A stretch of 64,000 bases of DNA from an uncultured delta proteobacterium. GTDB lineage: Bacteria > Myxococcota_A > Polyangia > Polyangiales > Polyangiaceae. This document shows positions 51,456-57,938 of the stretch, piece by piece. The stretch lies in the NCBI GenBank assembly GCA_903906315.1, contig CAIVJW010000432.1, forward strand, positions 1 to 64,000, given 5' to 3'. Below the pieces are notes generated by a model. The model saw only the letters and a list, made by a program, of their open reading frames with translations, ran no database searches and was not told the origin of the DNA. Position 1 is the first letter of the stretch, and each line of letters begins with the position of its first letter. The position numbers were made by a program, and so were the translations under genes.

Positions 51456-54400
51456 TCAGTTGTAGATGCCCTTCATCGTCGGATCGGCCAGGCCGTAGGC
51501 GTGGAGCGACTGACGGAGGAAGAACGGAATCTCCTCGTAGTGCGACAGCATGATGCACTGCGCGTCCTTGATGCACTGGACCTGGCCCTTGGCGTCGAGC
51601 TCCGGGATGTACCAGTCGGGGGTCCCGTCGCCGTTGAGGTCGGGGCCGTTCGTGACCGCGTAGCCCTTGACGAGGAGCTGGTTGGCCCACTCGAGGATGC
51701 GCGCCGCGATGCCCTTCTGGACGGTCTTGCCGAAGATGACCTCGGTGCCGAAGGTCTTCGCCACGTAGACCTTGCCGTTGGGCAGGTGCAGCTCGATCCG
51801 GTTGTCGAAGCCCGGGTCGCTGTCGCCGCCGATGTCCCAGATCCCGAGGTTGTTCAGCCACCACTGCTGCTGGTTCTCGGGGAGGTAGGCGAGCGTCATC
51901 GCGATGAGGAACTTCTGCTGCTCGAAGCCGACCTGCGGGTCGACCGTCAGCATCTTCTGGCCGGTCTTCGGGCTGAACGAACCGGAGTCCGTCAGGCTCG
52001 AGCACACGGTCGAGCCCTCGCCGGGGAAGCAGACCTCGGGGCCGTCGGCCGGCCACCAGCTGGTCCAGCCGATGGGCGTGCAGGGGAAGAGGGCCGCGGC
52101 CGGGTCCTCGGCGAGGTCGCGCTCCGACGCGCAGGTCTTCGGGCGGCCGTTGGCCTGGGCCTCGATGTGGACGCCCTTGAGCTCGTCGTCGCCCGTCAGG
52201 TTGCTGGCCAGCCACCGGCGGAAGCCGTCGGGGAACAGGTCGGCGACGGACACCGAGCGGTAGCGCGCGTCGTAGAAGTCGTCGCGCGTCGAGCTGATGA
52301 AGTTGTCGACCGACTCGGTCATCAGCATCGCGGCCCAGGCCTTGTCGTAATACGACCCGGCGTTGAGCGTGTAGTCGCGGTCGTACTCGCCGCGGTCGCC
52401 CGCGAGCTGGTTCTCGATCGGCTTGCCGCCGAAGGCGACGTTGCCGTAGTAGCCCGTCCCGCCGTTCGGGATCACGACGCCGAACGCGTACTTCTTCGCG
52501 TCGATGACCGTGCCGGGGGCCAGCTCGGTCGAGCGGTAGACGGTGTCGCTGCCCGTCTTCTGGTGCAGTCCCGGCTCCGGGCGAGCCGTCTGGCGAGCGA
52601 ACTCGTCGAAGGCCATGCCGGACGCGAGGATGTTCTCCGGGAAGAACCCGCCGACGAGGAACTCGGCCTGCGAGGTCAGGTAGAGGTCCCGGTACAGGTT
52701 GACGTAGAGGCCGAGCCCCTTCGCGCCGTCACGGATCTTCTCCATGTAGCGGCTGCGGATGCGGCCCGACGCCTTGCGGACGCTGAACGCCTGCCGGTTG
52801 CGCCGGAAGTTGTCGAAGATGTGGTTGACCTCCGGCTGCGTGATGAGGAAGTCGAAGAGCTCGTACGGGTCGGCGCCGTTGTCGTGCCGGTACACGCTCA
52901 GGTTGCCGAGGTCGGCCCACGAGTCGGTCGCGAAGCCGTAGGGCACGCGGGTGCGGCCCTGGGCGTCGATCGAGCCGCCGTGCGGCTGGTAGGCGTTGGC
53001 GCCTTCCTTCTCGTTCGCGGGGCGCAGGCGGTTCCAGTTCACGTAGTCGACCGGCTGCTGGCGGCAGCGCGAGAACTGGCCGTCGACGCGGACGATCTGG
53101 CCGTCGAGGAGCGGGTTCCAGGCGCCGTCGCGGGCATCGTTCCACGTGGCCGGGCGGAACTTCATGACCTCCTCGTCGGAGTAGTTCACGCAGCTCTCGG
53201 GCTTGATCAGCTCGTAGTTCTTCTGCAGCTCCGAGTAGTGGATGTCGTTGCCGTCGTACTTGAACGTCAGGCCGATGATGCCGCCGAACGTGTCCGTGAA
53301 CGTCTGCACGCCCAGGCCGCGGGGCTTCGAGATGTTGTAGGTCGGGTCGGCGTGCACGGCGACGGCGCCCGAGTAGAACATGCGCGCCGCGGCGAAGTCG
53401 TACGCGGCGAGGCCGGCCATGTCCTGGGCGATGTCGCCCGGGTACTCCATGACCGAGTCCTGCTGCCAGGCGCCGATCATGTTCTTGCTCTCGTTCGGCG
53501 TCATCGGGTCGAAGTAACGCCGGTCGACGCAGTTCTCGGCGTCCTTCTCGTTCTTCAGGTCGCCGCAGGGCTTGGTGACCTTGCCGTTCTTGGTGCGGAG
53601 CTGCCAGTACTGCGGCCGGAACGAGTGCGCGTCGTACGAGCTGATGAAGTTGTGGCGCAGGCCGATCGAGTGCCCCATCTCGTGGATGATGACGCCGTAC
53701 TGCAGGCGCTGCGCGACGTACTGGCGCATCTTCTCGGCGCGATCGAGCTGGGTCTGCAGGCTGTCCGCCGGGTTGAACGCGCCGAACTTCTCCTCGAGGA
53801 CATCCGCGATCCCCGTGAACGAGAAGGGTGCGGGCGCTTCGTTGACGATGCAGGCGTGCCGGTCGGCCAGCCCGAGCTCGCGCATGCGGCGCAGCTCACG
53901 CTCGAAGGTCGGGTTCGCGCCGCGGAGCGGCGAGGCGAACTGCAGCACGGTGTCGCTCAGGGGCAGGCCCTCGACGCCGGCGTACTGCTGCATCGCCGGC
54001 GTGACGAGCAGGGCCTCCATGTCGCTTCCGGCCGCGGCGCGGCGACGGGCGGCATAGATGGGCGCCATGGTCGACGCGGCCTTCGCGTCGGAGCGCGTGT
54101 TCTGGACCCTCTGCTTTAGCTCCAGCAGCTTGGCCTTCACGGCCGGGTCGATCTTCGCGGCAGCTTCCTTCGCCGCCGGGAGGTCCGCCGCCTTGATGCC
54201 GAGCGCCGACGCGATGCGCTGCTCGGCGTCGGCCTTGGTCATCTTCGGCGCCGAGCCGCTGGCGGACGCGTTGTTCGCCTCGACCCAGTCGCGGACGTAC
54301 TTGCCGTCGGTGACCTCCGAGGTCTTCAGCTCGCCCTTGATGTAGCGGGCGGTGTCGATGAGCCCCTGGCTGGCCAGGTCGTTGACGTGCGTCCAGATGT

Positions 54401-56234
54401 TGATGCTCGCCTGGACCTTCTCGCCGGTGAGCGGGTCGTCCGCGTCGACCATGATGCCCCAGGGCGACGGGTCCTGCGGCGACGTGATCGAGTTGACCTG
54501 GTGGTAGCGCAGGTCGCCGATGCGCACGGTCAGCGCGGCCTGGCAGGCCTGGCGCGTGGCGTCGTCGAGCTGGCTCGGGTGCACGGCGCACGCCCCGGCC
54601 TTCATGCCGGCGGGCAGTCGCGGCCCGCCGCAATCCGTCGGATCGTCCGCCTGCACGGGGCTGTGGCACATGACGATCATCTCGCGCGCCTTCGCGATCG
54701 CGATGACGCCCGGCGTGTACTGGCGCAGGGCACCGACCTCGTCGGCGACCGCGTTGCAGTCCTTGCCCTGGTACGCCTTGCCGTGCCGGCAGTCGTCGAC
54801 CTCACGCGCGAGCGCAATCGCGTCGGCGTTGTCGTCCATCTGGCCGGTGTAGACGGGGTACTGCGTCGCGCAGTCGGTGCCGCCCGTGGTCACGCACTCG
54901 GTGTAGCGCGCGGTGACGACCGACGCGCGCAGCGCGACGTCCCACTCGTGCGCGGCCCAGTCGGTGCCGTCGAAGAAGTTCGAGTTCGACCCCTGGGTGA
55001 AGTACCAGACGACCGGGACTTCCTTGCGGTCACGGTAGGGCAGCGTGCAGCGCTGCTTGAACGTGTCGCACTTGGAGCCCTTGCCGACGGCCTGGCACTC
55101 GTCCTCGGTGCCGTCCGGGCCGCCGCTGCCGTCCGCGCCGACCACGTCGCGGTGCGGGTCCTGGCCGGCGGGCGTGGTCTCCGGCGTGAAGCACGCGACC
55201 TCGCCCTTCATGTTCGCCGCGTCCTTGTAGAAGTGGCTGCGCTCCCACAGGTTGTAGCGGTCGAGGAACCGGTACCACTTGTTGTCGCTCATCCCGTAGT
55301 CGCGGGCGTAGCCGTAGCGGTCGGTGTAGAAGCCGCCGTACGAGGCGAACTTGAAGCCGTCCCAGTCGACCGGCTCGTAGTCCTTGTCGACCACGCGCAT
55401 GAACGAGTTGCGGATGGTCAGCTCGACCGGATCGCACGAGCCCGCGGGCGCCGAGCCGCTCATGAAGTCCGCGTCGAGGTAGCACGCGGGGAACTTCGAG
55501 ATGCCGTACTCGGCCGCCCAGTCGAACTTGGACAGGTCGATCATGCCCGGCGAGGCGAAGGCCTTCGTCGTCACGTCGAAGTAGCCGCCCTCGGCGTCGA
55601 AGTGCGGCGCGTTCGGGTCGGTCGGGTCGTTGACGTAGTACGAGAGCGGCTCGAAGCTGATGCCGCCGTTGATGCCCATCATCGAGAGCATGTCGAAGTC
55701 GTACGAGCCCGAGTTCAGGTTCTTCGACCAGTCGACGCGCATGTACTCGCGCTCGTACCAGGGCCGATCGGACTGGTTCTCGACGATGACGTTCGACTCT
55801 TCGCCCGTCGTCGGGTTGTAGTCGCGCCGGATGTCGAAGTGCGTCTGGATACGGAAGGCGACCGAGATGACGCCGTCGGTGCTCGCCGGTCCGACACCCT
55901 TGTGATCGCTGTCCGCGATGCGCTCGTAGGTGATTCGGCCGATCAGCATGTCCTCCTGGACCACCCACTTGATGCGGGAGATCGGCTGGGAGAACGTCGA
56001 GGTGAACATCCCGTCCTGAGCTGCGCCGTAGCCGACGTCGATGAGCGTCGGCCGGCTGTAGAACTCGGGGTCATCCGAGGGATCGGTCAGCTTCGCGCCG
56101 ACGAAGAACGACTTCGCCAGGGCGTTCGGCTGGACCCTGTTGATCGGTGGGCGTTCCTGGGCGCAGCCGACTGCCCCCCCGGCGACCAGCCCAACGGCTG
56201 CCGCCATAACCGCCCTTGTCCACATCCATCTCAT
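51456..56234 (-). CDS. Very large metzincin-like zinc metalloprotease lipoprotein
   Basis: A 1592-residue predicted lipoprotein (lipobox AVGC, Cys24). The metzincin-type zinc motif HEMGHSIGLRH lies at residues 851-861, with His851, Glu852, His855 and His861. The N-terminal 850 residues and C-terminal 730 residues resemble no domain I recognise, though an Asp-rich segment near the C-terminus (GPDLNGDGTPDWY) may bind calcium. The ATG at 56234 follows AAGGAGG at a suitable distance. Such giant metalloprotease lipoproteins occur in Myxococcota and may help degrade prey or matrix; the role is inference. A candidate sigma-54 promoter lies upstream. Confidence 0.85.
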   Translation of the reverse strand: MRWMWTRAVMAAAVGLVAGGAVGCAQERPPINRVQPNALAKSFFVGAKLTDPSDDPEFYSRPTLIDVGYGAAQDGMFTSTFSQPISRIKWVVQEDMLIGRITYERIADSDHKGVGPASTDGVISVAFRIQTHFDIRRDYNPTTGEESNVIVENQSDRPWYEREYMRVDWSKNLNSGSYDFDMLSMMGINGGISFEPLSYYVNDPTDPNAPHFDAEGGYFDVTTKAFASPGMIDLSKFDWAAEYGISKFPACYLDADFMSGSAPAGSCDPVELTIRNSFMRVVDKDYEPVDWDGFKFASYGGFYTDRYGYARDYGMSDNKWYRFLDRYNLWERSHFYKDAANMKGEVACFTPETTPAGQDPHRDVVGADGSGGPDGTEDECQAVGKGSKCDTFKQRCTLPYRDRKEVPVVWYFTQGSNSNFFDGTDWAAHEWDVALRASVVTARYTECVTTGGTDCATQYPVYTGQMDDNADAIALAREVDDCRHGKAYQGKDCNAVADEVGALRQYTPGVIAIAKAREMIVMCHSPVQADDPTDCGGPRLPAGMKAGACAVHPSQLDDATRQACQAALTVRIGDLRYHQVNSITSPQDPSPWGIMVDADDPLTGEKVQASINIWTHVNDLASQGLIDTARYIKGELKTSEVTDGKYVRDWVEANNASASGSAPKMTKADAEQRIASALGIKAADLPAAKEAAAKIDPAVKAKLLELKQRVQNTRSDAKAASTMAPIYAARRRAAAGSDMEALLVTPAMQQYAGVEGLPLSDTVLQFASPLRGANPTFERELRRMRELGLADRHACIVNEAPAPFSFTGIADVLEEKFGAFNPADSLQTQLDRAEKMRQYVAQRLQYGVIIHEMGHSIGLRHNFISSYDAHSFRPQYWQLRTKNGKVTKPCGDLKNEKDAENCVDRRYFDPMTPNESKNMIGAWQQDSVMEYPGDIAQDMAGLAAYDFAAARMFYSGAVAVHADPTYNISKPRGLGVQTFTDTFGGIIGLTFKYDGNDIHYSELQKNYELIKPESCVNYSDEEVMKFRPATWNDARDGAWNPLLDGQIVRVDGQFSRCRQQPVDYVNWNRLRPANEKEGANAYQPHGGSIDAQGRTRVPYGFATDSWADLGNLSVYRHDNGADPYELFDFLITQPEVNHIFDNFRRNRQAFSVRKASGRIRSRYMEKIRDGAKGLGLYVNLYRDLYLTSQAEFLVGGFFPENILASGMAFDEFARQTARPEPGLHQKTGSDTVYRSTELAPGTVIDAKKYAFGVVIPNGGTGYYGNVAFGGKPIENQLAGDRGEYDRDYTLNAGSYYDKAWAAMLMTESVDNFISSTRDDFYDARYRSVSVADLFPDGFRRWLASNLTGDDELKGVHIEAQANGRPKTCASERDLAEDPAAALFPCTPIGWTSWWPADGPEVCFPGEGSTVCSSLTDSGSFSPKTGQKMLTVDPQVGFEQQKFLIAMTLAYLPENQQQWWLNNLGIWDIGGDSDPGFDNRIELHLPNGKVYVAKTFGTEVIFGKTVQKGIAARILEWANQLLVKGYAVTNGPDLNGDGTPDWYIPELDAKGQVQCIKDAQCIMLSHYEEIPFFLRQSLHAYGLADPTMKGIYN

Positions 56235-56329
56235 CGGAGATCCTCCTTCAACTGCCACTCAAGGTTCGGACGTCGAAGCTCGTCGCGCCATGTGCCCGCG
56301 GGCTGCGCGGGGAGATCGCTAGGAGCGAA

Positions 56330-56390: not shown

Positions 56391-56409
56391 ACGCGCCCCC
56401 GGCGCGCGT
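56391..56409 (-). terminator. Stem-loop overlapping the hisD stop
   Basis: ACGCGC (56391-56396) and GCGCGT (56404-56409) form a 6-bp stem with a 7-base loop immediately at the end of hisD on the minus strand. It probably ends hisD transcription before the metalloprotease promoter. Confidence 0.35.
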
Positions 56410-57728
56410 TAGGGCCCTGACTGCGGTTCGTTAACGCCGCGCGTGCGTGCGCCGACGGCGCCGAGCCGGAGCTCGACGGCGCGGGCGTGAGCCTCGAGGC
56501 CCTCGGCTCGGGCCAGCGCGGTGATGTGGGGGGCGTGCCGCGCGAGCGCGGCCGCGGAGTAGCCGATGATGCTCGAGCGGGTGACGAAGTCGTAGACCCC
56601 GAGCGGCGCTCCGAATCGCGCTCCGCCGCCGGTCGGGAGGACGTGCGACGGGCCCGCGAGGTAGTCGCCCGCGGCGACCGGGGCGAGGGGCCCCACCAGG
56701 ATCGCGCCGGCGGCGTGGATGCGGTCGAGGAGCGCCTCCGGATCGGCCACGTGCAGGGCGACGTGCTCGGCGGCGATGGCGTTGCCGATCTTCACGAGCC
56801 GGTCGACGCTCGTCACCACCAGGGCGACCCCGCGATCGCGGAGTGACGCCTCGATGATCGCGCGGCGCGGCTGGGTCACGAGCTGCTCGGCGATCGCGGC
56901 GACCGTCGCGTCGGCGAGCGCGCGGGAGGTCGTGGCGAGGATGGCCCAGGCGTCCTCGTCGTGCTCGGCCTGGGAGAGCAGGTCCGCGGCGACGAGGCGA
57001 GGGTCGGCCGACTCGTCGGCGAGCACGAGGATCTCGCTCGGGCCGGCGATCGAGTCGATGTCGACCTCGCCGAAGACCATGCGCTTGGCGCAGGCGACGT
57101 AGGCGTTGCCCGGGCCGACGATCTTGTCGACGGCGGTGACCGAGGCCGTCCCGTAGGCGAGCGCGCCGATGGCCTGGGCGCCGCCGGCGTCGAGGATCTC
57201 CGTGACGCCCGACAGGTGCGCGGCGGCCAGGATGGCGTCGTCGGGGGCGGGGGTCGCGAGGACGAGGTCGCGCACGCCTGCGACGCGCGCGGGGATCGCG
57301 GCCATGAGGACGCTGGAGGGGTAGCGGGCCTTGCCGCCGGGGGCGTAGACGCCGACCCGCGCGAGCGGGCGCACGCGGAGCCCCAGCGTGACGCCGTCTG
57401 CGTCCTCGAAGCGGAAGCCGGGCTCGCGCTCGCGCTCGTGGAACCGCTCGATGCGGGCTGCGGCGAAGGTGAGGGCGTCGCGCACGGGCGCGGGGAGTCG
57501 CGCGAGGGCGCCTGCGCCGTCGAAGGTCCGCGTCACCAGCACGGCCGGGGTGCGCCGCTCGAAGCGCTCGACGTAGCGCAGCACGGCGTCGTCGCCTTCG
57601 GCGCGCACGTCGTCGAGGATCGCGCGGACCGCGGGGGCGACGGCCTCCAGGTCCGAGGCGCCGCGGCCGCGGAGGCGGCGCAGCTGGGCCTCGAACGCGG
57701 GCGTGCCGTCGACGGTGAGGGTCAGCAT
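56409..57728 (-). CDS. hisD: Histidinol dehydrogenase
   Basis: A 439-residue zinc enzyme catalysing the last two steps of histidine synthesis. It has the family segments VYAPGGKARYPSSVLMAAIPARVAG, IVGPGNAYV and DSIAGPSE. SQAEHDE carries a zinc ligand His, AAEHVALHV the catalytic Glu-His, and GDYLAGPSHVLPT another conserved block. The ATG at 57728 gives normal length. No other his gene is adjacent, so it is away from a his operon. Confidence 0.95.
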   Translation of the reverse strand: MLTLTVDGTPAFEAQLRRLRGRGASDLEAVAPAVRAILDDVRAEGDDAVLRYVERFERRTPAVLVTRTFDGAGALARLPAPVRDALTFAAARIERFHEREREPGFRFEDADGVTLGLRVRPLARVGVYAPGGKARYPSSVLMAAIPARVAGVRDLVLATPAPDDAILAAAHLSGVTEILDAGGAQAIGALAYGTASVTAVDKIVGPGNAYVACAKRMVFGEVDIDSIAGPSEILVLADESADPRLVAADLLSQAEHDEDAWAILATTSRALADATVAAIAEQLVTQPRRAIIEASLRDRGVALVVTSVDRLVKIGNAIAAEHVALHVADPEALLDRIHAAGAILVGPLAPVAAGDYLAGPSHVLPTGGGARFGAPLGVYDFVTRSSIIGYSAAALARHAPHITALARAEGLEAHARAVELRLGAVGARTRGVNEPQSGP

Positions 57729-57938
57729 GCGGGGGCGGTGGGCTCTCGGCTGCGTGGTGGCGTCGCGCGACGGCACGTTGGCGGAGGGAGGCGAGCCTCT
57801 ACCACAGGGGCTACCCGCATGGAACGGCTCCTCGGTGCTCGGCCGCGCACCTCCGCATGCTCGCGTCCGCCCTCCCGGGGCTCTCGATCGGCCGCCGGGA
57901 AGGCGCCCGTGCCGCGCGGGGTGCGCTAGCGTTGGCGC

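Follow-up and report, generated by a model that had tools for sequence, protein, structure and literature searches.

What kind of protein is encoded by P0001, a very long open reading frame whose zinc motif lies in the middle of the chain, and what are the long stretches on either side of that motif? The frame is on the minus strand of a 64,000-nucleotide stretch of a contig from an uncultured member of the Polyangiaceae, referred to here as the window. We propose, from sequence comparison, that its product is an exported zinc endopeptidase, probably anchored by lipid, that it belongs to the metzincin clan, and that its family is a sister branch which has diverged from the DUF5117/DUF4953 Met-zincins.

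The gene, its lipobox and its zinc site

The frame is opened by a GTG at 56258 (51456-56258, minus strand), and an ATG at 56234 gives a product of 1592 residues; the relatives start at about the same point as this ATG and carry similar signal peptides. The G+C contents at codon positions 1, 2 and 3 are 0.61, 0.45 and 0.97, the pattern of a genuine gene in a high-GC genome, and the plus-strand frames overlapping P0001 look like shadows.

Conservation was read from two alignments. The first contains 30 full-length sequences of the giant family, P0001 included (30 of the 43 relatives listed), which were gathered by similarity and not by motif; the second adds 20 mostly shorter relatives to these 30 giants. 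Seven residues are invariant in the first alignment (C24, H851, E852, H855, H861, M929 and Y931), and all of them are kept in 50/50 sequences of the second. C24 is the cysteine of the lipobox, which reads AVGC followed by AQ; P0001 has the N-terminal signal peptide and lipobox cysteine that mark a bacterial lipoprotein, and the cysteine is aligned in all 50 sequences. The zinc motif HEMGHSIGLRH lies where the original prediction had placed it, with 850 residues before it and 731 after, and it is not a chance occurrence, since its histidines and glutamate are invariant in 30 sequences gathered without motif selection. The Met-turn that had been named as a check is present downstream as SVMEY, with M929 located 68 residues past H861. 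The metzincin clan (subclan MA(M)) is defined by the motif HExxHxxGxxH (PMC3890501). P0001 carries this pattern at 851-861, and its M929 is aligned to the methionine of the Met-zincin SVMDY. The metzincin-like lipoprotein of the original prediction is thus borne out in its motif, its Met-turn and its lipobox cysteine, all of which are conserved.

We propose that the signal peptide carries the protein through the inner membrane and that C24 is then lipidated. H851, H855 and H861 would bind zinc, E852 would activate water and M929 would form the Met-turn, while Y931 may help catalysis by analogy with astacins, in which a tyrosine at this place is a catalytic helper. Such an enzyme would be likely to cleave proteins in the cell envelope or in the extracellular space. 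Twelve more cysteines are invariant among the 30 giants, which suggests disulfides formed outside the cytoplasm; eight of these twelve are not universal in the 50-sequence set.

A different reading of the same site is an inactive, metal-binding lipoprotein of structural or adhesive function that retains its zinc site. The very large non-catalytic regions, a substrate that is not known and the change of the motif glycine to alanine in 2/50 sequences would be compatible with it, but the glutamate, the three histidines and the Met-turn are invariant in 50/50, which is unexpected in a dead enzyme, and we regard this reading as very improbable. The motif glycine itself is kept in 48/50 sequences; the two alanine variants, L012 (HEMGHGMALRH) and L014 (HEMGHSIALRH), retain every zinc ligand.

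Relationship to the DUF5117/DUF4953 Met-zincins

The sole Pfam match over cut-off in P0001 is PF16313 (DUF4953, 'Met-zincin') on residues 834-868, with 26.7 bits against a cut-off of 24.2, and it spans only profile positions 3-36 of 316, that is, about 35 positions; the same model matches 28/30 members of the giant family at E <= 0.01. Weak matches of the M10, M12 and M57 models around the motif are what could recommend P0001 as an ordinary matrixin (M10) or reprolysin/astacin (M12) with extra domains. All of these are below their cut-offs in P0001, whereas PF16313 is over its own, which makes such a membership hardly credible. The classical metzincins (matrixins M10, astacins M12A, reprolysins M12B and M57) have the zinc motif and the Met-turn in common with P0001, and differ from it in domain order. 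Peptidase M66 (PF10462), considered as a further candidate, had no match in the genome of P0001, and NCBIfam and PADLOC gave no match. Sequence searches of solved structures with P0001, profile A1 and the last 238 residues returned nothing relevant; the Met-zincin profile A2 retrieved only motif-sized matrixin matches among the best 60 of 113, the best of them at E 0.0032.

For comparison, a set of 12 Met-zincins was assembled from L059 and L060, which carry both domains by Pfam, four proteins taken from DUF5117 matches, and six plasmid-borne proteins taken by similarity to L059; members of this family have been annotated as 'zinc-dependent metalloprotease'. The 30 giants align to this set with hhalign over residues 69-618 (96.9%, E 1.8e-10), with a score of 99 compared with 15-23 for a reversed and seven column-shuffled controls. 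With the shorter branch added to the giants, the profile comparison reaches 99.4% and E 4.9e-22, with a score of 201 against 13-23 for a reversed and five shuffled controls. This alignment is one continuous path over residues 242-557 of the Met-zincin P0002, running in order through the last third of DUF5117, PIVYW, WNKSFE, DVRY and DPRTG, then the zinc motif and finally the Met-turn. Slices that lack the zinc motif also match the Met-zincins in order, namely residues 400-660 of P0001 (E 1.8e-7) and residues 300-470 of L140, a member of the shorter branch (E 1e-11). At the level of sequence profiles, homology of the putative catalytic domain to that of the Met-zincins is therefore demonstrated.

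The relation of the N-terminal domain to DUF5117 is graded along its length. DUF5117 (PF17148), which normally accompanies DUF4953 on its N-terminal side, has no Pfam match in P0001, was matched in 0/39 near genomes, the own genome included, and was matched in only 6/235 genomes of the phylum. Since P0001 is below the Pfam threshold, we do not file it as a DUF5117 member but only as a likely homologue. In P0002 the DUF5117 Pfam match covers residues 114-302, of which the strongest alignment takes in only 242-302; for the first two thirds of the domain, kinship is weakly suggested by just the 69-618 alignment and its controls. Residues 24-345 of P0001 alone match the Met-zincins at a colinear place, if weakly (E 3.2e-4 with the enlarged profile), and with the smaller profile the N-terminal domain alone gave E 0.011, 0.011 and 0.0095. 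Residues 9-384 of P0001 are matched at 1e-27 by a bridging protein, L103, in which the second part of DUF5117 occupies the equivalent position, with 30.0 bits (over the cut-off) in one search and 26.3, just under the cut-off of 27, in a second. Four proteins of 940-1000 aa (L062, L063, L065 and L068) and two ORFs of L109 were also tried as a bridge; they group with the Met-zincins (E 3.1e-35) and match the giants at E 2e-11, no better a bridge than the Met-zincins themselves.

It follows that a separate metzincin family, having only the catalytic core in common with the Met-zincins and an N-terminal domain unrelated to DUF5117, has to be weighed here. Such a family would agree with a single-sequence BLAST of P0001 against a Met-zincin, in which significance is confined to 36 residues around the motif, with the missing DUF5117 Pfam match, and with the weakness of the N-terminal domain taken alone. 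Against this stand the ordered matches of the two motif-free slices, the colinear position of the 24-345 match and the bridge that L103 forms between P0001 and the second part of DUF5117, so that we consider a separate family unlikely and favor the sister branch of the Met-zincins.

On this assignment P0001 resembles the Met-zincins (PF17148 plus PF16313) in its zinc motif, its Met-turn and its DxRY and DPxTGE strands, all in the same order, in a domain before the protease that aligns with DUF5117, firmly for the last third, and in a mid-chain motif. It differs in its size (1592 aa, compared with 744-876 aa for the Met-zincins as trimmed), in two insertions that the Met-zincins lack, and in a C-terminal half that cannot be aligned with theirs. 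The central position of the motif had been called not typical of known metzincins, a view that does not hold among the nearest relatives: 12/12 Met-zincins examined, with starts as trimmed by us, have the motif 51-59% of the way along the chain, and P0001 has it at 53%. Since an active site in mid-chain is the rule among its closest kin, the giant family should be seen as unstudied and not as odd. The Met-turn pattern S-[VI]-M-D-Y was found in 11/12 of the Met-zincins.

Domain layout and structure models

The features of the locus are listed in the table. A DUF5117-like beta domain would precede a metzincin catalytic domain of residues 404-960, and the zinc motif is so far into the chain because the N-terminal half of that catalytic domain is interrupted by insertions. 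The region of the catalytic strands includes an extra loop at about 530-565, and the Cys/Asp-rich loop, judged by eye, possibly binds calcium. Judging from this layout, the catalytic domain of Met-zincins may be able to accommodate large insertions. As a guess, the C-terminal part of about 630 residues might serve in the binding of a substrate or of partner proteins.

Features of the P0001 locus in the window (residue limits preceded by ~ are approximate)
Feature	Residues	Position	Strand	Basis
Whole protease gene P0001	1592 aa	51456..56234	-	open frame; GC3 0.97
Signal peptide and lipobox cysteine	1-24	56163..56234	-	aligned Cys 50/50; lipidation predicted
N-terminal beta-rich DUF5117-like domain	~30-345	55200..56147	-	hhalign 69-618; firm for ~265-333 only; model-1 strands
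Cys/Asp-rich loop	~345-400	55035..55202	-	four Cys invariant in giants
Catalytic domain start (strand PVVWYF; long helix with EWDVALR)	404-448	54891..55025	-	aligned to Met-zincin PIVYW ... WNKSFE
Insertion 1 in catalytic domain	~449-518	54681..54890	-	gap relative to Met-zincins; helical in models
Catalytic strands (IVMCH, GDLRYH, DPLTGE)	519-620	54375..54680	-	aligned to IVVKQ, DVRYN, DPRTGQ of Met-zincin
Insertion 2	~625-830	53745..54362	-	mostly helical in models, low confidence
Zinc-binding/catalytic motif HEMGHSIGLRH	851-861	53652..53684	-	conservation; PF16313 on 834-868
Met-turn SVMEY	927-931	53442..53456	-	M and Y 50/50; slice 830-960 against Met-zincins E 7.8e-16
C-terminal region, mixed, many helices	~960-1350	52185..53357	-	no outside match
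C-terminal alpha/beta region	~1355-1592	51459..52172	-	no outside match; pLDDT mostly >75 at ~1430-1580
hisD (histidinol dehydrogenase), neighbour gene		56409..57743	-	~175 bp upstream of P0001, same strand
Lipoprotein-like ORF (by eye)	325 aa	57939-58916	+	no Pfam match at E <= 1e-4

Both flanks of the motif had been described as unknown in the original prediction. That description no longer applies to about half of the N-terminal 850 residues, where some 450 residues belong to the DUF5117-like domain or to the opening half of the protease and the remaining upstream residues are, as aligned, insertions and loop; it stands for residues 960-1592, which have no match outside their own family. 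The known family to which the N-terminal flank relates, DUF5117/DUF4953, is itself uncharacterised, and the C-terminal flank matched none. In profile comparisons the P0001 slices 960-1380 and 1380-1592 had no match to any Met-zincin region, and parallels noted by eye between residues 960-1380 and the C-terminal part of the Met-zincins were not borne out. The part of the DUF4953 model beyond the Met-turn is thus unmatched in P0001, which is not evidence of a different fold.

Two AlphaFold2 models were built, each with 22-23 sequences, for residues 24-975 (model 1) and 400-1592 (model 2). Their mean pLDDT values, 62.0 and 63.8, are too poor for fold assignment. The two models agree on strands at 408-412 and 520-524 and near 594-599 and 606-614, on a helix at 418-449 and on a long helix that starts at 826 and runs through the first zinc ligands; model 1 also has strands within 38-280. 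This predicted secondary structure fits the Met-zincin alignment. With Foldseek neither of these low-confidence models had a match at E <= 0.001, and no metzincin was among the matches listed in the fold searches of both (pLDDT 62-64). With VIA-align the N-terminal domain reached Z <= 5.7, where PsbO and lipocalin-like barrels scored level with other barrels, and model 2 reached Z of at most 3.9; as these values are within the common range for the tool, no fold is claimed for P0001. The fold searches speak neither for nor against a metzincin fold.

Family spread, possible role and gene neighbourhood

The family of P0001 is ordinary in kind, under-studied and common in its phylum, among myxobacteria and bacteria akin to them. 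In named genomes 28 loci were identified, including ones from Sorangium, Polyangium and Minicystis, and from these names we take the phylum of the window to be Myxococcota; a match was present in 49/59 near-relative genomes, the own genome included, and the own genome holds one paralogue of P0001 on contig C363. The family profile matches 98/188 genomes of the phylum at E <= 0.001, with few candidates scored per genome, and at least one of the 98 (G069, E 1e-4) is probably just a canonical Met-zincin. The shorter branch, represented by 20 further relatives of 1205-1520 aa as trimmed (18 under 1400), belongs to the same phylum and joins the giants over residues 10-1586 in profile comparison (100%, E 8e-198). 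Its members, such as L140 (1254 aa), have the lipobox cysteine and the order of regions found in the giants, with smaller insertions, and some of them lack several of the giant-branch cysteines.

Met-zincin matches often occur as tandem pairs on the same strand, with at least 29 pairs in 29 genomes among hand-picked rows, 2.2-5.1 kb apart (for example G062:C2, G074:C8, G098:C37 and G082:C63); in several pairs the frame lengths differ, as in G062 with 1504 and 1825 aa. L109 (G121:C10) has two neighbouring Met-zincin-like ORFs with frames of 766 and 833 aa, and a canonical gene of the DUF5117/DUF4953 type is located on the same contig, some 18 kb from this pair.

The nearest known family, DUF5117/DUF4953, bears only domain-of-unknown-function labels, and the link to the Met-zincins offers a concrete and testable hypothesis of enzyme function for many proteins that lack characterisation in these bacteria, which are noted as predators. 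A literature search on DUF4953/DUF5117 Met-zincins and on myxobacterial metzincins, covering titles and abstract openings with most subscription journals outside its coverage, found nothing on the giant family. For the vesicles of Myxococcus xanthus, PMC4158809 lists many lipoproteins and, among the vesicle-specific proteins, seven predicted peptidases or proteases, of which one is given as M10A/M12A. Rather speculatively, the Myxococcota might possess a large, so far undescribed family of disulfide-rich outer-membrane lipoprotein metzincins of about 1200-1900 aa, encoded in many genomes by tandem pairs of genes, whose insertions and C-terminal regions would form a surface machine that digests prey or processes envelope proteins, with the expansion of paralogues reflecting substrate range. 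Elsewhere, the canonical Met-zincin genes of L097 and L101, from Segatella and Bacteroides plasmids, are immediately upstream of genes for SusC/RagA TonB-linked outer membrane proteins, an adjacency that hints at some connection with the uptake of nutrients.

The neighbours of P0001 suggest an old chromosomal position and have no bearing on its substrates. The hisD gene is directly upstream on the same strand, at about 90-215 bp, in 9/27 relatives' loci (L006, L007, L008, L016, L019, L021, L026, L027 and L031, four of which are near-identical Polyangium), several loci holding little upstream sequence. An FHA-DUF4388 gene lies downstream of P0001 in the window, and a relative of it is found within 4 kb downstream in 9/27 loci, one of these nine relatives being only 38% identical and one being on the other strand. 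Relatives of the 325-aa ORF are present in L011, L016 and L023, where they are again situated upstream of the gene for the protease and face the other way.
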